Positions 51,353 through 64,000 of a DNA stretch of 64,000 nt are shown in pieces. Source of the DNA: Halobellus salinus (GTDB lineage: Archaea; Halobacteriota; Halobacteria; Halobacteriales; Haloferacaceae); NCBI RefSeq assembly GCF_014646875.1, contig NZ_BMOC01000016.1, positions 1 through 64,000 of the forward strand, in the 5' to 3' direction. The notes under the pieces were generated by a model. The model made no database searches, was not told where the DNA came from, and was given only the letters and a program-made list of their open reading frames with translations. The position numbers and the translations under genes are program-made. Each line of letters begins with the position of its first letter. Positions within the stretch are counted from its first letter, which is position 1.

Positions 51353-51816
51353 TGCAGGCGATCGTCCAACTCCGCGGCGAAGTGAATATGAGTGGGGACG
51401 TCCACGACACGCTCAAGATGCTCAACGTCCACCGTGTGAACCACTGTGCGTTCGTGCCCGAGACGGACACCTACCGCGGGATGATCACGAAGGTGAACGA
51501 ATACGTCGCTCACGGCGAGCCGAGCGTCGACGTCGTGGAGACGGTGCTCTCGACGCGTTCCGAGCCCGCGGAAGGCGACGCCGAAGTCGACGGGGCGTGG
51601 GTGGCTGAACACACCGACTACGACGGCTTCGGCGCGCTCGCCGAAGCGTTAGTCAGCGAGGAGACCACCCTGCGGGAACAGGGGCTCTCGCCGGCGCTGC
51701 GGCTCCACCCGCCGCGCGGCGGCCACCGCGGCCAGAAGCATCCGACCACCGAGGGCGGACAGCTCGGGAAGCACGCAACCGAGGACATCGACGAACTCCT
51801 GGAGGCCATGCGATGA
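51352..51816 (+). CDS. rpl30: 50S ribosomal protein L30 (uL30)
   Basis: A 154-aa protein of the archaeal long form. [60 protein letters not shown] and RLHPPRGGHRGQKHPTTEGG identify it. It overlaps rpl15 by 4 nt. Confidence 0.97.
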   Translation: MQAIVQLRGEVNMSGDVHDTLKMLNVHRVNHCAFVPETDTYRGMITKVNEYVAHGEPSVDVVETVLSTRSEPAEGDAEVDGAWVAEHTDYDGFGALAEALVSEETTLREQGLSPALRLHPPRGGHRGQKHPTTEGGQLGKHATEDIDELLEAMR

Positions 51817-52310
51817 CGTCGAAGAAACGGCGCCAGCGCGGCTCCCGGACCCACGGCGGCGGCACGCACAAGAACCGCCGCGGTGCCGGACATCGCGGCG
51901 GCCGCGGCCGTGCGGGACGGGACAAACACGAGTTCCACAACTACGAGCCGATCGGGAAACACGGGTTCAAGCGTCCGGACGATTCGGTTCGGACGGTCGC
52001 GGAGGTCAACGTCCGACAGCTCGACGAGGACGCGGCGTTGCTTGTGGCAGACGGCCTCGCGGAGGCCGACGGCGACACCTACCACATCGACGCCCGCGAC
52101 GTTGCCGAGGACGCCGCCGAGGCCGACCTGGTGAAGGTGCTCGGCGGCGGACAGGTTCGACAGGAACTGCACGTCGTGGCGGACGCGTTCACCGGGAGCG
52201 CGGTCGAACTGATCGAGAACGCCGGCGGGAGTGTCGATCTCACCGACCGCGGCGAGGAGCTCCTCGCCGAGGCCGAACCCGACGACGAAGACGACGATAC
52301 AGAGGAGTAA
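51813..52310 (+). CDS. rpl15: 50S ribosomal protein L15 (uL15)
   Basis: A 165-aa protein with a basic, Gly/Arg/His-rich N-terminus (KKRRQRGSRTHGGGTHKNRR, GAGHRGGRGRAGRDKHEFHN) and a globular C-terminal part (AEADLVKVLGGGQVRQELHV, AVELIENAGGSVDLTDRGEE). It ends in an acidic tail. secY follows after 3 nt. Confidence 0.97.
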   Translation: MTSKKRRQRGSRTHGGGTHKNRRGAGHRGGRGRAGRDKHEFHNYEPIGKHGFKRPDDSVRTVAEVNVRQLDEDAALLVADGLAEADGDTYHIDARDVAEDAAEADLVKVLGGGQVRQELHVVADAFTGSAVELIENAGGSVDLTDRGEELLAEAEPDDEDDDTEE

Positions 52311-52313
52311 CCT

Positions 52314-53783
52314 ATGGGATGGAAGGAGGCCGCCGAACCGGTGCTAACGCGGATGCCCTCGGTCGCTCGTCCGGAGGGACACGTCCCCTTCAAGCGGAAG
52401 ATCGGGTGGACCGCGGGCATCCTGGTGCTGTATTTCTTCCTGACGAACGTGGTGCTGTTCGGACTGCAGACCGGCGGTACGGGCGGTGACTTCTACGGGC
52501 AGTTCCGGAGCATTCTCGCCGGTTCTCAGGGGTCGATCCTCCAGTTGGGGATCGGCCCGATCGTCACCGCGAGCATCGTGCTCCAGCTGCTCGGCGGCGC
52601 CGACCTGCTGGGACTCGACACCGACGACCCGCGTGATCAAGTGCTCTACCAGGGGCTTCAGAAGCTGCTGGTGGTCGTGATGATCTGTCTGACCGGGTTG
52701 CCGATGGTGTTCGGCGGGAACTTCCTGCCGCCCAGCCAGGCGCTCGGGCAGTCGCTGGGTATCGGGACTGGCGGCGTGCGCGCGCTGCTTTTCGCCCAGA
52801 TCGCCGTCGGCGGTATCCTCATCCTCTTCATGGACGAGATCGTGAGCAAGTGGGGCGTCGGGTCCGGCGTCGGGCTGTTCATCATCGCCGGCGTCAGCCA
52901 GCAGCTCGTCGCCGGGTTGTTCAGCTGGGAGTCGCTTGGCGGCCAGAGCGGCTTCTTTCCGACGTGGATCGGGATCCTCACCGGCGCCGTCGACATCGGG
53001 TCGCCGCTGACGCCGGGTGGGCTCTCGGATCTGTTCCTCGGCCAGGGCCAGATCCTGGCGTTGATCACGACGGTCCTGATCTTCAGTATCGTTGTCTACG
53101 CCGAGAGCGTCCGGGTCGAGATCCCGCTGTCGCACGCGAACGTCAAGGGCGCCCGTGGACGGTTCCCGGTGAAGCTGATCTACGCGTCCGTCCTGCCCAT
53201 GATCCTCGTCCGCGCGCTCCAGGCCAACCTCCAGTTCCTGGGGCAGATCCTGAACAACTGGTGGGCGGCGATGCCCGGGTGGGTCGGCCAGTACAGCCAG
53301 GGACAGATCACTGGCGGACTGTTCTGGTATCTCGCGCCCATCCAGTCGAGACAGGACTGGATGTGGTTCCTGGGGTTCACCTCCCAGGACCCGGCGGCGA
53401 TCGCGTTTCGGGTCGCTATCGACCTGACGTTCATGATCATCGGCGGTGCGGTCTTCGCGATCTTCTGGGTTGAGACCACGGGGATGGGCCCCGAAGCGAC
53501 CGCCCGGCAGATCCAAAGCTCCGGGATGCAGATCCCCGGATTCCGCCGCAACCCGCAGGTCATAGAGAAGGTGATGGAGCGGTACATCCCGCAGGTGACT
53601 GTCATCGGCGGCGCCTTGGTTGGCCTGCTCGCGGTGCTTGCGAACATGCTCGGCACCATCGGCGGTGTCTCGGGAACCGGGCTGCTGCTGACGGTCTCGA
53701 TCACGTACAAACTGTACGAGGAGATCGCCGAAGAGCAGTTGATGGAGATGCATCCGATGATGCGCGAGATGTTCAACAACTAA
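52314..53783 (+). CDS. secY: Preprotein translocase subunit SecY
   Basis: A 489-aa channel subunit of the Sec translocon. Ten hydrophobic segments can be traced. The N-terminus ends in PSVARPEGHVPFKRKIGWTA. Later blocks include LQLLGGADLLGLDTDDPRDQ, YAESVRVEIPLSHANVKGAR (the cytosolic loop that contacts the ribosome and SRP receptor) and IPGFRRNPQVIEKVMERYIP with the loop before TM9. It is the last gene of the ribosomal operon here. The adk gene, often found next in archaea, is not present. Confidence 0.97.
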   Translation: MGWKEAAEPVLTRMPSVARPEGHVPFKRKIGWTAGILVLYFFLTNVVLFGLQTGGTGGDFYGQFRSILAGSQGSILQLGIGPIVTASIVLQLLGGADLLGLDTDDPRDQVLYQGLQKLLVVVMICLTGLPMVFGGNFLPPSQALGQSLGIGTGGVRALLFAQIAVGGILILFMDEIVSKWGVGSGVGLFIIAGVSQQLVAGLFSWESLGGQSGFFPTWIGILTGAVDIGSPLTPGGLSDLFLGQGQILALITTVLIFSIVVYAESVRVEIPLSHANVKGARGRFPVKLIYASVLPMILVRALQANLQFLGQILNNWWAAMPGWVGQYSQGQITGGLFWYLAPIQSRQDWMWFLGFTSQDPAAIAFRVAIDLTFMIIGGAVFAIFWVETTGMGPEATARQIQSSGMQIPGFRRNPQVIEKVMERYIPQVTVIGGALVGLLAVLANMLGTIGGVSGTGLLLTVSITYKLYEEIAEEQLMEMHPMMREMFNN

Positions 53784-55226: not shown

Positions 55227-55907
55227 GTGAGCCAGCTCACGGACCGGGCGCCGGACGTTCGGCAGATCGAGTTCGAGAACGCCTTCTACGCCGACGAGGG
55301 GAGCTGGATCGAATCGCTGCTCGTCACGTCGGGACCGTCGTTCGACCCGGCAGCGGTCACCGACGACCTGTCGCGGGTCGAACTGTTCCACCACGAGCGG
55401 GTGACGGTCGGACCCGCTGATCGGCCGACCCACCGGATGACGGTCGTCGCGCACGAGCCGTACCCGTTTCTGCTCGGGGAGATCCTCCGAGGAAACGCGA
55501 TCCCGAACCGACTGGGGCTACAGACCGGGCGTTTCGACAGCGTCGTCACCGTCAAGCAGTGGGACGCGTTCCGGGCGCTCGCCGACAGGATTCAAAACCG
55601 GTTCGGTCGGTTCGAGCTCCTGAGCGTGAATCAGGTGGAAACCACGGGTGAAGCGCTCGGGAGCGGACAGCTCGGCCGGGTGCTTCGGAACGAACTTTCA
55701 CCCGACCAACTCACCGTGCTCCGGACCGCCCACCGGATGGGCTACTTCGAGGTACCACGGGCGGCCTCGGCGGACGACATCGCCGCGGAACTCGACATCG
55801 CCCAGTCCACACTCAGCGAACGCCTGCGGCTCGCGGAACACCAGCTGTTCGACCTCGTGTTTTCGGGGAGCGACGGGGGGGCCGCGACCGACGACACCGA
55901 AGAGTGA
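55227..55907 (+). CDS. Bat-type HTH-10 transcriptional regulator
   Basis: A 226-aa protein beginning at a GTG. Residues 1-155 form a domain like the bacterio-opsin activator region (DVRQIEFENAFYADEGSWIE, VELFHHERVTVGPADRPTHR). Residues 160-215 are the HTH_10 domain: LSPDQLTVLRTAHRMGYFEV, ASADDIAAELDIAQSTLSER, LRLAEHQLFDLVF. It lies 204 bp upstream of the peptide transporter operon on the same strand and may regulate it; that link is inferred from position only. Confidence 0.82.
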   Translation: MSQLTDRAPDVRQIEFENAFYADEGSWIESLLVTSGPSFDPAAVTDDLSRVELFHHERVTVGPADRPTHRMTVVAHEPYPFLLGEILRGNAIPNRLGLQTGRFDSVVTVKQWDAFRALADRIQNRFGRFELLSVNQVETTGEALGSGQLGRVLRNELSPDQLTVLRTAHRMGYFEVPRAASADDIAAELDIAQSTLSERLRLAEHQLFDLVFSGSDGGAATDDTEE

Positions 55908-56111
55908 CCGGCCGCACGCTTCCGGGTCGGCCCGCTCGCCGCGAAACGGATAACAGCCGTACTGATCGGATTTTGCAACCGAAAACAGCTAGTTCGGGCC
56001 GGTCCCGTCGACGCAGGGCGTGTCGATTCCGGAGTCCCTAATAAAGGATGATGTGTATTGAGGGGAATCGGCGACACGTTCAAACCAATCCCTGAATATT
56101 GATTGGGTGGA

Positions 56112-58079
56112 ATGTCGCAAGACAAGCGCTTCGAAATCGAGACAGGGACCTCATCGCGGCGCCGGTTCATCCAGATCGCGGGGGCAACGGGCCTCGCGGG
56201 GATGGCGGGGTGTGGTGGTAGCGGTGGCAGCGATGGTGGCAGCACCGACGCCGACTCGGGTGGCGACTCCGGCGGGGACAGTGGTGGCGACTCCGGCGGG
56301 GACGCCGAGTCTATCGAGACCCGCTTCTGGGAGGAGTGGCCGGTCGAGACGAAAGGGTCCGAGGTTAACAGCGAGGCGATCCAGTTCGAGTATACGGCGG
56401 TCGAGGGCGAATCCGTCCCCGAGGTGGACACCCACTTCGCGCAGGCGGAGACTCCGTGGATGCGGGAGTTCGCGCTCTTGGTTCAGCAGTCGCTGAACGA
56501 CCTCGGTGTTCCGGTCAACCTCGTCAACGTTCAGCCCAGCACCCGGTACGGGGAGTTCTGGCGGGCCGACATCGGCCACCCGATGCCGGTCACGATGAAC
56601 CTCCACGGCCCGGACCCCCAACGCGGACTCGACCCCAACCCGTTCCTGATGCGCGCGCACCCGGAGACCGGTGGGAACTACTACAACTACAAGAACGACG
56701 AGGTCACCGAACTCCTCGACGAGCAGTCACAGACGATCGGTGACCCGGAGGCCCGCGCGGAGATCTGTGCGGAGGTCGCACAGCTGCTCAACGAGGACGC
56801 CTACCTCATCGCGGCCAACTTCCCCGAGGTCATCACGGTGGCAGACATCGACAACTGGGAGGGGTACGTTCCCACGCCCGGCAACGGGACGACCCGTGAC
56901 TCGTTCATCTGGACGCAGGTCAACCTCCAGCCGCAGGGTGACTCCACCACTTGGGTGAAGGGTGTCACCGCCGGTATGCAGGGCACCAACCTGCCGTTCT
57001 CAAGCGGCGGCCTGGAGGAGAAGCGCCTCCTCAACGTGTATGACGGGCTGTTCGACGCGTCGCCACAGTTGGAGATCGTGCCCGCGCTGGCGACTAACGC
57101 GGACGTCGTCGACGACACGACCATCGAGATGGACCTGCGCGAGGGTGTCGAGTGGCACGACGGCGAGTCGTTCGGTCCGCAGGACGTCAAGTTCAGCGTC
57201 GAGTACTACCAGGAGAACAACGCGCCGCAGCAGGCCGCGTTCGTCCGGCCGATCGATAGCGTCGAGGTGTTGTCGGAGAGCGGCGGCGGCCGCGTCCGGT
57301 TCACCCTCACCGAACCCGACGCCGCGTTCCTCACACAGCGCGTGGTCCGGAGTGCAATCATCCCGGAACACCGGTGGTCCGACGTCGACAGCCCCGGCGA
57401 GTACAACCCCGACAATCCGGTCGGAACCGGACCGTTCGCGTTCGAGAACTGGGAACAGGGGTCGGAGCTCCGCCTGACGAAACACGAGAACAACTGGATG
57501 TGGGACGACGACATCCGTCGCGAACTCGTCGGCGAGGAGTATTTCGTCCCCGGCGACGGTATCGACGAGATGGTGCACGCGAACGTGGGGAACGTCTCCA
57601 CGCTCATCGGCGCCATGCAGTCCGGCGACATCGACGCCATCGGGACGACCGTCTCGAACGCCCAGGCCGACCGCGCGGCAAACGCAAGCGGCGTCGAAAA
57701 GCAGACCTCACGGAACTACGTCCCCACGGACGTTCACCTCAGCCACCTGGTTCCGCTATTCCGTGACAAGACGTTCCGCGTCGCCCTGAGCCACGCCTTC
57801 GACAAGGAGGGGTTCGTGGAGAACACCCTCGGGGGCCGCGGCGAGGCGATCGAGGGACAGAACCTGCTCACGCCGCTTCTGACGCCGTACCACGCCGAAA
57901 CCGAACCCTACGAGTACAACCCCGAGATGGCCCAGGAGATGCTCCAGCAGGCCGGGTACACCTACGACGGCGACGACAACCTCGTGTGGCCCGAGGGCGA
58001 CGCGTGGGACGCCTTCGCCGAACGGGTCGAAAACGGCCACGCGAGCCGCGAGGACCTAGATCAGTCCGACTTCTCCTAA
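56112..58079 (+). CDS. Peptide ABC transporter substrate-binding lipoprotein, apparently circularly permuted
   Basis: A 655-aa family-5 binding protein. The ATG at 56112 gives a Tat signal (SSRRRFIQIAGATGLAGMAG) with lipobox Cys34, then a Gly/Asp/Ser linker to about 64. Residues about 113-258 (WMREFALLVQQSLNDLGVPV, NYKNDEVTELLDEQSQTIGD, LLNEDAYLIAANFPEVI) match what is normally the C-terminal segment of DppA/OppA. Residues about 300-635 match the N-terminal and middle parts (RLLNVYDGLFDASPQLEIVP, DLREGVEWHDGESFGPQDVK, NPVGTGPFAFENWEQGSEL, DKTFRVALSHAFDKEGFVEN, NPEMAQEMLQQAGYTYDGDD). After them the protein ends, without the usual C-terminal segment. It is the first gene of the transporter operon. 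Confidence 0.88.
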   Translation: MSQDKRFEIETGTSSRRRFIQIAGATGLAGMAGCGGSGGSDGGSTDADSGGDSGGDSGGDSGGDAESIETRFWEEWPVETKGSEVNSEAIQFEYTAVEGESVPEVDTHFAQAETPWMREFALLVQQSLNDLGVPVNLVNVQPSTRYGEFWRADIGHPMPVTMNLHGPDPQRGLDPNPFLMRAHPETGGNYYNYKNDEVTELLDEQSQTIGDPEARAEICAEVAQLLNEDAYLIAANFPEVITVADIDNWEGYVPTPGNGTTRDSFIWTQVNLQPQGDSTTWVKGVTAGMQGTNLPFSSGGLEEKRLLNVYDGLFDASPQLEIVPALATNADVVDDTTIEMDLREGVEWHDGESFGPQDVKFSVEYYQENNAPQQAAFVRPIDSVEVLSESGGGRVRFTLTEPDAAFLTQRVVRSAIIPEHRWSDVDSPGEYNPDNPVGTGPFAFENWEQGSELRLTKHENNWMWDDDIRRELVGEEYFVPGDGIDEMVHANVGNVSTLIGAMQSGDIDAIGTTVSNAQADRAANASGVEKQTSRNYVPTDVHLSHLVPLFRDKTFRVALSHAFDKEGFVENTLGGRGEAIEGQNLLTPLLTPYHAETEPYEYNPEMAQEMLQQAGYTYDGDDNLVWPEGDAWDAFAERVENGHASREDLDQSDFS

Positions 58080-58104
58080 ACGGGTCACGGGAACCGATTC
58101 ACCA

Positions 58105-59088
58105 ATGAGTTTTCGACGCTTTTTGCTCAAACGAACCCTGATTGCGGCGTTGCTGACGCTGATCGCCGTCAGTGTCATCTTCGCCACCCTCCGGATGCTC
58201 CCCGCAGACCCGTTCAGCGGACTGGTCGCCTCGGGGTCGCTCACGCCGGACGAAGTGGATCAAATACGCGCGATGTACGGGCTGGACGAACCCATCTACG
58301 TCCAGTATGTCAAATACATCCAGAACCTCTTCACCTTCCAGTTCGGGATCTCGCTCACCCAGCAGCGCCCGGTCGGGGAGATCATCATCCCCGCGCTAGT
58401 CAACACGATGGTGCTGCTGCTGCCGGCGCTTGTCGCCACCGCGATCGTGAGTTCGCTGGCCGGAATGTACGCCGGCTGGAACCGCGGGTCGTGGTTCGAG
58501 CAGTCCAGCATCGTGGTCACCACGGTCTTTCGTGCGACCCCGATCTTCGTGACCGGGATCCTCTTTCTCATCATCTTCTCGTATGGGTTGGGGTGGCTCC
58601 CAGCCTTCGGGATGCGCAGTCCGTTGGCCAACCCGGACGGCTACCTCGAGACGTACCTCTCGGTGGACTTCCTCAAACACTACCTCCTCCCGTTCGCCGC
58701 AACGGTGCTGTTCTACAGCGGCGACTTCCTGATGCTTGCGCGCAACTCGGTCGTCGAGCGGATGGGGTCGGAGTTCCTGATGCTCCACCGCGCGAAGGGG
58801 CTCTCCGAGATGGAGCAACTCGGCCGCGCCGGCCGGAACTCGCTTCTGCCGCTTGTCACCTACTTCGCGCTCCGGACCGGGATGCTGTTCCAGGGCGTCA
58901 TCACCCTAGAGGTCGTCTTCGCGTGGCCCGGAATCGGCCGCGCGCTGGTCCAGGCCATCCTCAACCAGGACTACCCAACCGTGCAGGCAGCCGTGTTCAT
59001 CATGGCACTCGCAGTAATCATCATGAACCTCACCGCCGACGTAGCGTACGCGAAACTCGACCCGACCGTGGAGGCAGGTGACGTCTGA
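58105..59088 (+). CDS. Peptide ABC transporter permease (DppB/OppB type)
   Basis: A 327-aa membrane protein with six hydrophobic segments. The N-terminus FLLKRTLIAALLTLIAVSVI and the following DEVDQIRAMYGLDEPIYVQY are typical of the OppB class. The coupling loop is MLHRAKGLSEMEQLGRAGRN (EAA-like with G at the centre). The block LEVVFAWPGIGRALVQAILN is diagnostic. It starts 25 nt after the binding-protein stop and overlaps the next permease by 1 nt. Confidence 0.93.
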   Translation: MSFRRFLLKRTLIAALLTLIAVSVIFATLRMLPADPFSGLVASGSLTPDEVDQIRAMYGLDEPIYVQYVKYIQNLFTFQFGISLTQQRPVGEIIIPALVNTMVLLLPALVATAIVSSLAGMYAGWNRGSWFEQSSIVVTTVFRATPIFVTGILFLIIFSYGLGWLPAFGMRSPLANPDGYLETYLSVDFLKHYLLPFAATVLFYSGDFLMLARNSVVERMGSEFLMLHRAKGLSEMEQLGRAGRNSLLPLVTYFALRTGMLFQGVITLEVVFAWPGIGRALVQAILNQDYPTVQAAVFIMALAVIIMNLTADVAYAKLDPTVEAGDV

Positions 59089-60011
59089 TGTCCTCGGGGT
59101 ACTTTTTGGATCCGGAGACCGTGATCGAGCGGCTCCGGTCGCAGGGCGGACGGGCGTGGCGGACGCTCCGGTTCGTTCTCCGGGACAACTCGGCGAAACT
59201 CGGGTTCGTTATTATCGTCACGTTCGGATTTATGGGGATCTTCGGGCCGATGCTGGCGCCGTACCACCCGATCGAGGACACGCTCCAGCAGGGCGGGTCG
59301 ATGATGCGGCTCCAGCCGCCGGGCGGGAAGGCGGTCCTGGGAACGACGTCGTTCGGGAAAGACATCCTCAGCCAGTTCCTCGCCGGTGCGCGGCCGACGC
59401 TGATCGTCGGCCTCTTCGGCGGGGTCGGCACCGGCGTGGTTGGGTTCCTCGTCGGCCTCACGAGCGGGTACTTCGGCGGCCGCGTCGACGAGTTCCTCAT
59501 GCGATTGACGGATCTGACGTTCGCGCTGCCGTTCCTGCCGATGGCGCTCGTGATCCTCTCGTTCGTGACGCCGAGCATCTGGATCATCACCGCCGTCCTC
59601 GTGACGTTCCTCTGGAAGATGCCCGCCCGGGTCATCCGGTCGGAAGTGATGACTGTCAAGGAACGGACGTTCGTGAAGTCCGCACGCGCACGCGGCGCGG
59701 GCCACCTCCGGACAATGTTCCTCCACGTCGCGCCGAACGTGCTCGGGATCGGCTTTCTCTACACCGCCTACGCCGTCGGCTGGTCGATCGTGGCCGGGGC
59801 GTCGTTGGCGTTTCTCGGGTTCGGCGACCCGACCACGACCTCCTGGGGCCGCATGCTCGAGCAGGTCTTCCGGTCGGGCGCCATCCGGGTGGCGTGGTGG
59901 TGGGTGCTCCCGCCGGCGATCGGCATCGGCGCGGTCACCACGGGCGTCTTCCTGGTCGGGCGGGCGTTCGAGGAGATAGTCAACCCCGACCTCCAAACGG
60001 AACAAGAATGA
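59088..60011 (+). CDS. Peptide ABC transporter permease (DppC/OppC type)
   Basis: A 307-aa membrane protein. FVLRDNSAKLGFVIIVTFGF with MLAPYHPIEDTLQ begins the OppC pattern. GTTSFGKDILSQFLAGARPT is the diagnostic loop after TM1. The coupling loop is FVKSARARGAGHLRTMFLHV, and FLGFGDPTTTSWGRMLEQ follows near the end. The stop overlaps the ATPase start by 4 nt (ATGA). Confidence 0.93.
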   Translation: MSSGYFLDPETVIERLRSQGGRAWRTLRFVLRDNSAKLGFVIIVTFGFMGIFGPMLAPYHPIEDTLQQGGSMMRLQPPGGKAVLGTTSFGKDILSQFLAGARPTLIVGLFGGVGTGVVGFLVGLTSGYFGGRVDEFLMRLTDLTFALPFLPMALVILSFVTPSIWIITAVLVTFLWKMPARVIRSEVMTVKERTFVKSARARGAGHLRTMFLHVAPNVLGIGFLYTAYAVGWSIVAGASLAFLGFGDPTTTSWGRMLEQVFRSGAIRVAWWWVLPPAIGIGAVTTGVFLVGRAFEEIVNPDLQTEQE

Positions 60012-62113
60012 GTCTACTCGAAGTCGACGACGTGAAGATCACGTATCGGATGCCGGGCGACGACGTCCACGCGGTCAACAACGTCTCGTTCTCGATCGAC
60101 GAGGGCGACAACTACGGGCTGGTGGGCGAGTCGGGGTGTGGGAAATCCACCATCGCGAAGTCCGTGCTCGGACTCCTCGACGACAACGGCGACGTCCGGT
60201 CGGGGAGCATCCGGTTCGACGGCCGGGAACTCCGCGACCTCTCGGAGCGCGACTGGATGTCGGTCCGGTGGGAGGACATCGCCTACATCCCACAGAGCGC
60301 CATGGACTCGTTGGATCCCGTGATGTCCGTCGGCGCGCAGATCCGACAGGCCATCCGGAAACACCGCGACGTCTCGAAGGCCAAAGCCGACGAGCGTGTC
60401 GCCGAGGTGTTCGAGATGGTGGGGTTGGATCCGACCCGGACGGGGGATTACCCCCACCAGTTCTCCGGCGGCATGCGCCAGCGGGTCACCATCGCTATGG
60501 CGCTGGCGCTCGACCCGGACCTCATCATCGCGGACGAGCCCACCACGGGGCTTGACGTGATCGTCCAGGACAAGATCCTGAACAAGCTCATGGAGCTCCA
60601 GGAGGAGCTCGGCAGTTCGCTGTTGCTTATCACCCACGACGTGGGCGTCGTCGCCGAGACCTGCGACGAGGTGTCGGTGCTGTACGGCGGGAAGGTGATG
60701 GAGCAGGGCGACACCGACCGGGTGTTCCGGAACCCCACGAACCCCTACACCATGGGGTTGAAGAACGCGTTCCCGGAGGTCGACGAGTTCGACGAGCAGG
60801 CCATCTCGATTCCGGGGTCGCTGCCGGACCTCACCGAGGAGCCCACGTCGTGTGTGTTCGAAAACCGGTGTCCGTTCGCCACAGAGGAGTGCGGGGCGAG
60901 CCACCCCGACCTGGTCGCGGCCAACGAACAGCTGTCGGCGTGCCACCACGTCGACGAGGCCGACGAGATGCGCGATCAGGCCAAAGACCCCGAGACCTGG
61001 GGGATCGATGTGCGGAACGAGGTCGAGCGGACGGGCGGGGTGGGCGACGTCATCCTCGAAACCGACGGCCTCGAGAAGTGGTTCAAACAGCCGCAGGGGA
61101 TCCTCGACGACTTCCGCGGCAAGGAGCCCGACTACGTCAAGGCGGTCAATAGCGTCGACCTCACGGTCCACGAGGGCGAGATCGTCGGTGTCGCCGGGGA
61201 GTCGGGGTGCGGGAAGTCGACGCTTGCGGAGGTGATCGCCGCGCTCCAGGACCGAACCGGCGGCGAGATCACCATCGACGCCACGCCGATCGACGACCTG
61301 CTGGCGGAGAACACGAAGGAGTTCCGCTCGCAGGTGCAGTTCATCTTCCAGGACCCCTTCGACTCGTTGAACCCCCGCCAGCGGGTCCGGGCGGCGGTCT
61401 CGGAACCATTGAAGATTCAGGGTCACGACCCCGAGACCATCGACCGTCGGGTCAGACAGACCGTCGAGGACGTCGGGCTCAAACCCGCCGACAAATACCT
61501 CGACCAACTCCCCGCCCAGCTGTCCGGCGGGGAGCGCCAGCGGGTCGCGATCGCACAGGCGCTCGTGCTCGAACCGACGCTGCTGATCTGCGATGAGCCG
61601 GCGTCCATGCTCGACGTGTCGTTGAAGGCGAACATCCTCAACATCCTCCGGGAGATGGCGGACGACCGCGACATCGGCATCGTCTACATCTCCCACGACC
61701 TCGCGAGTCTCACTCAGATCGCCGACCGACTGGCGGTCATGTATCTGGGTCGGATCGCGGAGATGGGGGCCACCGAGGACGTGGTCCGCACGCCGAAACA
61801 CCCCTACACGGCGTCGTTACTCGCGGCCTCGCCGCGGACCGACCCCGACGCCGACCGGAAGCGGGTGTTGCTGCCGGGCGAGCCGCCGAACCCGGTCAAC
61901 CTTCCCACCGGGTGCAACTTCGCGCCCCGGTGTCCCAAAGCCGGCGAGCAGTGTTACCGCGGCGACCCCGAGCGGTCGGAGTGCACCGAAGGCGACCACG
62001 AGGCCGCCTGCTACTTCCCGGTCGAGGACGTCGAGACGGAACTGCTTGAACGCTACATCGAGGCGCGCGAAGACGACGTCGAGGAGGTCCTCGAAGGTGG
62101 GATGACGCCTTGA
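60008..62113 (+). CDS. Fused double ATP-binding protein of peptide ABC transporter (DppD-DppF)
   Basis: A 701-aa protein with two complete ABC domains. I chose the ATG at 60008 because the open frame upstream lies within the permease gene. First half: [20 protein letters not shown], signature [33 protein letters not shown] and the oligopeptide C-terminal domain with Cys in [20 protein letters not shown]. Second half: [20 protein letters not shown], signature [34 protein letters not shown] and [17 protein letters not shown]. Both halves end in the Cys-rich motif. DppD and DppF are usually separate; a fused pair is also known in other transporters. Confidence 0.93.
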
Positions 62114-62221: not shown

Positions 62222-64000
62222 CTACTCGTCGGTCCGAACCAGCACATCGACCGCAACGGGGCCGTCGGCGGTGACGACCACCGGATTGAGGTCGAGTTCC
62301 GCCACCGCGTCGACCGACGCCGCGAGGTCGCCGACGTGCACGAGCATGTCCACGACGCCGTCAACGGGGAGCGGGTCGCCCTCTCGGCGGTCGGTCAGCA
62401 GTTCGTCTAACGCGGTCGCTTCGACCGCGCGCCGCGCGTCGCTGTGGTCGAACGGCGGCACGAGCGTCTCGCTGCCGCCGAGTGCCTCCACCAACACGCC
62501 GCCGGGACCGACCGTGACCAGCGACCCGAACACTTCACCCGGCGCGACGCCGAGCATCGCCTCGACGCCGTCGTCGATCATCGGCTGAACCAGCACGCCG
62601 GCGACGTCGTCCGCGTCGGCGTCAGCGTGGGCCACGGCGGCGCCCATCACGTCGTCGTACGCCGCCCGCACCGTCGCGGGCGAGTCGAGGCCGAGTGCCA
62701 CCGCCCCCACGTCCGTCCGGTGGGGCAGCGCCGGGGAGTCGATCTTACACACCACCGGGAACCCGAGATCCTCGGCGGCCGCAGCCGCCTCGTCGGCGTC
62801 GGTTGCTACGCGGGTGTCGACGACAGGCACGTCGTACGCGTCGAGCAGGGGTTCGGCCTCCGCCCAGGTCAGAACGCGCCCGCGGGGCAGATCGACCGCG
62901 GCGCCTCCGAGGCCCGCCGCGAGGTCGGCCCTGGAGGGCCGGGACGCCACGCGGTCGCTGTCGGCGACGTACTGCGTTGTCGAGGCGACGGCGTCGAGGC
63001 ACCGGCCCGGGTCCTCGTAGACCGGCACCGACTGCCTGAGCCGGGCGTACGGCGGTGTCGCGGTCGGGTCGTCGGGCGCCTTCCGGCCGGTCCAGAGCAC
63101 GTACACCGGGTCGTCGGCGCGATCGGCGATGGTTTCCAGATCCGCCGCGATGGTCTCGGCGCGCTCGTCGACGCCGGAGAGCCCGATCGCGAACACGTAG
63201 GCGTCGAAGGCGTCGTCGTCAAGCACTGCGTCGGCGATCTCGGGGAGCACCTCCGCGCCGTATCCTCGGATGTCCGCGGGGTTGTGGAACTCGCCGTAGG
63301 TCAGGAGTTCCTCGATGCCGAGGAGGTCGTCCTGGGTCGCCCCGTCAATGTCCGGCAGCGACAGGTCGCGCTCGGCGGCCATGTCCGCGAGCAGGCTCGC
63401 GAGCCCCCCGCTGGTGGAGGCGATACACACCCTGTCGCTGTCGGGGTCGTCGTAAGCGGTGTGGGCGGTGGCCCGCGACAGCAGGTCCGGGATGTCCGGG
63501 ACCCGCTGGACCCCGGTCTGGTCGACGGCCGCGTCCCACCCCTCGTCGCTCCCGGTGAGCGACCCCGTATGCGAGAGGGTGGCCTCCTCCGCGAGGTCGG
63601 ACTGGCCGATCTTCACGGTCAACACTGGGGTTCCGTTCCGGACCGCCCGTTCGGCCACCCGCATGAACCGCTCGGGGTCGTCGACGCCCTCGACGTAGGT
63701 ACACACCACGTCGACGGTGTCCTGTTCGGCGAGGTACGCGACGTAGTCGGTCAACCCCAGGTCGGCCTCGTTGCCGGTGGAGACGATGTGGCTGAAGTGG
63801 AGGTCCCGGTCGGCCGCGCGCTCGAAGAACGTGGTGAACGCGAGCGCTCCCGACTGGCTGACGAGGCCGATCCGGCCGGGGTCGGGCTTGCGGGAACACG
63901 TCGAGGTGAGCGTCGCGCCGCGGGCGGCCATCACACCGATGCAGTTGGGGCCGACCACCCGGATCCCGGCGGCGGCGGCGGCCTCGGCCAACCGGGCTTC
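62222..64000 (-). CDS. ADP-forming acyl-CoA synthetase (acetate-CoA ligase type), partial
   Basis: The gene runs off the window; 592 C-terminal codons are present. The N-terminal part seen is the CoA-ligase domain (GIRVVGPNCIGVMAARGATL, GRIGLVSQSGALAFTTFFER, FSHIVSTGNEADLGLTDYVA, TLSHTGSLTGSDEGWDAAVD). The last 230 residues form the ATP-grasp beta domain (VLTWAEAEPLLDAYDVPVVD, LGFPVVCKIDSPALPHRTDV, VLVQPMIDDGVEAMLGVAPG, AELDLNPVVVTADGPVAVDV). Alpha and beta are fused, as in haloarchaeal ACD. It makes ATP from acyl-CoA or activates acids. The 5' end and start are outside the window. Confidence 0.9.
   Translation of the reverse strand, partial: EARLAEAAAAAGIRVVGPNCIGVMAARGATLTSTCSRKPDPGRIGLVSQSGALAFTTFFERAADRDLHFSHIVSTGNEADLGLTDYVAYLAEQDTVDVVCTYVEGVDDPERFMRVAERAVRNGTPVLTVKIGQSDLAEEATLSHTGSLTGSDEGWDAAVDQTGVQRVPDIPDLLSRATAHTAYDDPDSDRVCIASTSGGLASLLADMAAERDLSLPDIDGATQDDLLGIEELLTYGEFHNPADIRGYGAEVLPEIADAVLDDDAFDAYVFAIGLSGVDERAETIAADLETIADRADDPVYVLWTGRKAPDDPTATPPYARLRQSVPVYEDPGRCLDAVASTTQYVADSDRVASRPSRADLAAGLGGAAVDLPRGRVLTWAEAEPLLDAYDVPVVDTRVATDADEAAAAAEDLGFPVVCKIDSPALPHRTDVGAVALGLDSPATVRAAYDDVMGAAVAHADADADDVAGVLVQPMIDDGVEAMLGVAPGEVFGSLVTVGPGGVLVEALGGSETLVPPFDHSDARRAVEATALDELLTDRREGDPLPVDGVVDMLVHVGDLAASVDAVAELDLNPVVVTADGPVAVDVLVRTDE

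Follow-up and report, generated by a model that had tools for sequence, protein, structure and literature searches.

The stretch of Halobellus salinus DNA analyzed here (hereafter the window; the first 64,000 nucleotides of contig NZ_BMOC01000016.1) carries an ABC importer operon on its forward strand. The operon is led by an intact ORF encoding 655 aa (56112-58079, +) that opens with ATG and has an alternative TTG start upstream at 56103; its coordinates and the motifs quoted for it in an earlier, sequence-only reading of this DNA were all reproduced when we re-read the sequence. About 25 bases 3' of this ORF begins an OppB/DppB-type permease gene (58105-59088, +), assigned by its NCBIfam Opp4B match (E of 4e-60) and by a permease tree, followed by an OppC/DppC-type permease (59088-60011, +; NCBIfam Opp4C, E of 3.5e-57) and a fused DppD-DppF type ATPase of 701 aa with two ABC_tran and two oligo_HPY matches (60008-62113, +). 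ATPase genes of about this length also stand 3' of the permeases in annotated orthologous plasmid loci. On the 5' side of the operon lies an HTH_10 regulator of the bacterio-opsin-activator type (55227-55907, +; Pfam HTH_10, E of 1.5e-17), a homologue of which adjoins 16 of the 18 orthologous loci examined in a tblastn neighborhood count. At the other end, a gene of the ADP-forming acyl-CoA synthetase family runs convergently with the operon (62222-64000, -, continuing to contig position 64438). Two features of the surroundings deserve mention in their own right: some 2.3 kb 5' of the transporter region are what appear by eye to be genes for ribosomal protein L15 and secY (51813-53783, +), an unusual vicinity for a peripheral importer, and just past the window the same contig encodes a protein predicted to join a Rieske [2Fe-2S] domain to an FMN domain of the glutamate-synthase type (contig 16, 65306-67087, -).

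The first gene of the operon encodes a circularly permuted family-5 (cluster C) substrate-binding lipoprotein. By its sequence, it starts with a twin-arginine signal (S-RRRF) and a lipobox ending at Cys34 (GMAGC; 56112-56213, +), although Pfam TAT_signal matches it at a sub-threshold level (E of 0.11). Residues 35-101 (56214-56414, +) form a Gly/Ser/Asp-rich tether and a low-confidence leader; the mature model has low pLDDT over its first ~30 residues. Next comes what we call the C-part, residues 102-277 (56415-56942, +), whose homologue in conventional family-5 substrate-binding proteins (SBPs) is the C-terminal segment, and then the N-part, residues 278-628 (56943-57995, +), which corresponds to their N-terminal two thirds. 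The sequence-only reading had placed these two blocks at residues 113-258 and 300-635; both are confirmed, with their limits redrawn. A 27-aa tail ending in DLDQSDFS (57996-58076, +) closes the protein, and its conserved pattern WDAFxERxxxGHxxREDLxQxDFS is characteristic of the orthologue clade of the window protein.

The segment order is apparent from profile searches. Pfam PF00496 (SBP_bac_5) scores 183 bits, well past the curated cut-off of 32.4 that marks the family-5 SBP superfamily, but does so in two pieces: profile positions 1-285 of 368 match residues 321-623 (E of 1e-53), while the remainder, 289-329, matches residues 105-148, upstream of the first match. Tested alone, the C-part region gives a weak PF00496 match (E of 0.026), and the principal match in sequence searches of NCBIfam and the PDB covers the N-terminal part of known SBPs. 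When the sequence is rotated so that the N-part precedes the C-part, a single continuous PF00496 match results (profile 1-328 of 368), and rotation of two divergent relatives likewise yields single matches (1-365 and 2-364). Since both pieces already score in their native order, rotation adds a modest number of bits (183 to 189; 177.5 to 187.6), and this gain is lost when the C-part is shuffled. HMMs of the N-part and C-part, built from permuted proteins alone, find conventional SBPs with the parts in opposite order, with C-part E-values from 1e-8 to 1e-25. For example, the two HMMs match E. coli DppA at 31-368 (N-part) and 384-516 (C-part) and E. coli OppA at 39-383 and 406-510, with C-part E-values of 5e-21 and 6e-15, respectively, in a three-sequence set. 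The 655-aa protein thus contains all segments of the family-5 domain, the C-terminal one included, and departs from the conventional linear order in having its C-part before its N-part.

Structure prediction agrees with this assignment. Given the mature protein and 36 permuted sequences but no templates, AlphaFold2 returned a single compact fold (pLDDT of 91.3, pTM of 0.89), for which the top structural matches listed are cluster C SBPs. Model residues 206-567 align with AppA 18-358 (Z of 24.3), and nearly the same N-part region aligns with NikZ (4oet) 1-328, CtaP (5isu) 37-363 and OppA (1ola) 1-361, with Z-scores of 21-24 for the N-part against OppA, AppA and NikZ. Sequential aligners skip the C-part in a run with the full model, so the C-part was predicted and searched separately. 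Nearly all Foldseek matches of the lone C-part are family-5 SBPs (best E of 3e-3), and it falls on 4oet 330-452, 5isu 361-482 and 1ola 358-477, the stretch that directly follows the N-part ranges. These C-part alignments, made with sequential aligners from a poor model, have low Z-scores (4-7) and a high rmsd (~11 A), as can be expected of a fragment that extends over two lobes; it is the complementary N-part and C-part ranges, rather than the Z values, that carry the structural argument. Taken as a prediction, the model suggests that the bilobed cluster C fold is kept in the permuted protein. A solved structure of a permuted relative was absent from the best 60 of 112 sequence matches in the PDB.

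The arrangement is shared widely. Using the two HMMs to classify all collected SBP loci, we found the permuted order in 129 ORFs (109 distinct proteins) and the conventional order in 46 relatives; no third order of the parts occurs among these ORFs. The breakpoints are nearly identical throughout the permuted set: the joint between C-part and N-part measures 2-15 residues in all permuted proteins but one, and all but one end no more than 40 residues past the N-part, most members outside the orthologue clade of the window protein ending 0-14 residues past it. In the conventional relatives the gap between the two parts is 7-25 residues. In the order that was searched, matches across the junction come from about 22 orthologues and from many relatives of 25-33% identity, and a scan of genome contigs adds bacteria to the named organisms with permuted members. 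We estimated prevalence as the share of genomes with a match of E <= 1e-90 to the permuted profile, each group being the taxon of the organism of the centre locus and the centre genome being counted where it matched. By this measure a permuted SBP occurs in 71 of 194 genomes of Halobacteria, in 10 of 111 from the phylum of a Trueperaceae locus, in 8 of 190 from the class of an Aliihoeflea locus (Alphaproteobacteria), in 5 of 198 from the phylum of a Desulfobacteraceae locus, in 5 of 229 from the phylum of an Evansella locus (Bacillota) and in 2 of 227 from the phylum of a Rubrobacter locus (Actinomycetota). Gammaproteobacteria are ruled out as the main home of the family, as 1 of 229 genomes from the class of a Halomonas locus has a match, that one being the search centre. 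The homologue search suggested in the sequence-only reading thus returned more than 100 proteins with the shared order, in haloarchaea and in bacterial groups. Permeases follow the SBP on its 3' side in 37 of 39 long permuted loci, and Halobellus salinus itself has a second permuted SBP (L004; contig 3, 58478-60196), 33% identical to the first and with its own permease gene.

Together, segment order, profile searches, rotation, structure prediction and homologues bear out the circular permutation proposed from the sequence alone, and the ORF at 56112-58079 is very probably the receptor of an Opp/Dpp-type ABC importer with a permuted cluster C fold. It is conceivable that residues 102-277 are instead an unrelated extra N-terminal domain on a truncated SBP that lacks the C-terminal segment; Pfam does give this region a weak match, and annotation gives the family no label beyond SBP. 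Such a reading is very hard to reconcile with a C-part HMM that matches conventional C-terminal segments, those of DppA and OppA among them, or with Foldseek matches that are nearly all family-5 SBPs aligned on their C-terminal segments. Furthermore, the isolated C-part folds poorly (pLDDT of 67.5, pTM of 0.46 in AlphaFold2), which argues that it is not a separate domain. We accordingly discard the unrelated-domain possibility that the sequence-only reading had raised for residues 113-258. Least probable of all, to the point of being almost negligible, is that the order reflects an assembly artifact, a frameshift or a rearrangement pseudogene in one genome. The Halobellus salinus genome is in 54 contigs, but we found no support for an artifact; the ORF is intact, and its order is shared by the 129 ORFs, which come from many independently assembled genomes, complete plasmids included. 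The same reading of the sequence had considered that a normal C-terminal segment might be encoded after residue 635 through a frameshift, and the C-part HMM found neither this nor a second C-part in six frames of the 64-kb window.

As for the number of origins, we rotated 37 permuted representatives into conventional order and placed them in trees with conventional proteins. All 37 permuted SBPs fall on one side of a branch with support of 99/96, and 98% of the bootstrap trees of the full domain need one change of order. The OppB-like permeases, which are not themselves permuted, show the same division: the partners of permuted SBPs form a clade (32 of 32) with support of 99 and a branch length of 0.41. 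This is independent evidence that a single permutation was followed by inheritance of the transporter as a whole. Most likely, then, the permutation was one ancient event, older than the dispersal of the family among haloarchaea and bacterial phyla, and the permuted SBPs have most likely been co-inherited with their cognate permeases. It might be argued that several independent permutations occurred at the same favorable site, for instance through frequent recombination of tandem SBP genes; tandem genes of this kind do exist, as in Evansella, and two changes are required when the tree is built from the N-part by itself, though no supported branch in it forces two. We regard repeated origin as improbable given that the full-domain and permease trees each need one change with strong support, that all members start and end at nearly identical points, and that no C-N-C duplication intermediates were found in the SBP loci examined. 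The trees are unrooted and draw their conventional proteins mainly from close matches, a bias that leaves the sister group of the permuted clade unsettled.

The position of the break indicates what the permutation may have done to the architecture. The N- and C-termini of OppA both lie in domain I, and domain III, which we take to be residues 271-486 of OppA, holds the point to which structural mapping assigns the break (~358-361). With a break inside domain III, the old termini are joined in domain I and the new ones open in domain III; by the same mapping, the number of hinge crossings stays at two. In cluster C SBPs generally, domain III is contiguous and flanked by two hinge strands; in EppA it spans 303-530 (PMC7312458). 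We therefore infer from the mapping that the termini have moved to the opposite lobe and that the two hinge crossings remain. The old domain I termini would have been joined directly and the chain reopened inside domain III, past a helix ending in AGY and the hairpin that follows it. The new chain would then run from the export signal through the rest of domain III and the second hinge strand to the old C-terminal portion of domain I, and from there through the whole old N-terminal part and the first hinge strand to the first portion of domain III. With both crossings retained, Venus-flytrap closure and docking could presumably proceed as in DppA. A likely route to such a gene, and the simplest, would be duplication of an SBP gene, direct fusion of the two ends and loss of the outer segments. 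In Evansella vedderi, three or more conventional family-5 SBP genes stand in tandem, the type of array that could yield a permuted gene.

The relocated terminus also bears on membrane tethering. Among archaeal permuted members, a pattern search found an RR motif together with a lipobox in 54 of 56, and their lipoprotein tether would leave from the opposite lobe (domain III). The signals of 14 named bacterial members resemble Sec/signal peptidase I (AxA) types, the sole regex lipobox match among them (locus L054) sitting in the n-region; at least one Bacillota member (locus L170) resembles a lipoprotein. That named bacterial members lack the lipobox means that anchoring is not a general consequence of the permutation. 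The sequence-only reading had inferred that the lipid anchor, now joined to the former C-terminal part, may reorient the binding cleft relative to the membrane permeases; in haloarchaea the tether does move to the other lobe, but this does not extend to the family as a whole, with named bacterial members bearing ordinary Sec signals.

The ligand is a separate matter. In DppA, R383 and D436 bind both the dipeptide termini and the scoop residues E41/R42 of DppB (PMC12136057). These two positions align with Q111 and Q170 of the window protein, the second less surely owing to a two-residue gap near D436, and in the permeases that partner permuted SBPs the E41-R42 scoop pair is mostly lost (R42 in all but 2). 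At about the D436 position, a motif R-x(1,2)-D-P occurs in 95 of 112 permuted proteins compared with 3 of 46 conventional ones, with a double DP in the clade of the window protein, and possibly marks a clade-specific ligand residue. Near 10 of the 18 orthologous loci lies a homologue of one or more of three enzymes: CoA-ester lyase, CoA transferase and ADP-forming acyl-CoA synthetase (the synthetase homologue accompanying the transporter in 6 of the 18), whereas of 66 other SBP loci 4 have the CoA transferase and none the lyase or the synthetase. In the window, the convergent gene at 62222 belongs to this synthetase type. The neighboring CoA-ester lyase and CoA-ligase genes suggest a carboxylate, and we tentatively propose a small CoA-activated carboxylate, e.g., a hydroxy- or dicarboxylate, as the likeliest substrate for the orthologue group of the window protein. 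A genuine role in di- or oligopeptide capture, in keeping with its homology to Dpp/Opp systems, seems to us rather unlikely for the permuted receptor when both clamp residues are replaced, the scoop pair has largely gone and CoA-related genes, nearly absent from the 66 other loci, recur beside its orthologues. The "peptide-binding" label of the sequence-only reading is accordingly unsupported for this protein. Other permuted subclades, that of L004 included, lie near M20/M28/M81 peptidase or hydantoinase/oxoprolinase genes, which speaks for a peptide ligand in some of the family; these subclades may take peptides or their derivatives.

Compared with DppA, OppA, AppA and NikA/NikZ, the conventional PF00496 proteins, the permuted SBPs are alike in whole-domain homology, predicted fold, OppB/C permeases and Opp-type ATPase. 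They differ in having the C-terminal third first and their termini in domain III rather than domain I, and in forming a separate clade; the window protein further lacks the DppA clamp residues. In E. coli DppABCDF, the SBP closes on its ligand and docks on permeases that carry the scoop motif (PMC12136057); the window's system shares this subunit plan, but the chain order in E. coli is the conventional one and neither R383/D436 nor the E41/R42 scoop is conserved in the system described here. A naturally circularly permuted ABC-importer SBP is known in Tp0684 (MglB-2) of Treponema pallidum and its relatives, termed type Ic or cluster Bc, in which the permutation adds a fourth hinge crossing and the topology was linked by the authors to membrane tethering (PMC4990184). 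Tp0684, however, has a type I (cluster B) sugar-binding fold, whereas the window protein is homologous to family 5; the mapping of the permuted family-5 proteins implies that the two cluster C crossings are kept rather than increased, and many of these proteins are untethered. In literature that took in few of the subscription papers, a search for natural permuted family-5 or cluster C SBPs returned Tp0684, of another fold, and engineered proteins. RefSeq labels the members simply "ABC transporter substrate-binding protein", and the natural permutation of family 5 has apparently gone unnoticed.

Few transport receptors are as common as the family-5 SBPs. Recognizing the permutation explains split or truncated family matches and should alter annotation. 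Furthermore, the permuted family offers a natural experiment, conserved in several phyla, that allows chain order to be separated from hinge, tether and permease docking, and a single event co-inherited with permeases leads to testable predictions on docking. Perhaps, though we would not favor it, the permuted receptors and their permease clade constitute a separate importer class, with docking, tethering or ligand release unlike that of Dpp/Opp. If so, termini in domain III would free the part of the domain I surface that holds the termini in DppA and may have changed the contact with the permeases; a first sign of such a change would be that the scoop E-R pair and R383/D436 have been lost.

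The second permuted SBP of Halobellus salinus, L004, is flanked by genes for two peptidases (one M28, one M20-type) and a luciferase-like monooxygenase, and it probably binds a different substrate from the window protein. Next to it on contig 3 is a gene for a fusion of a class-V aminotransferase of the cysteine-desulfurase type with a NifU/IscU-like N-terminal domain (56744-58363, -).
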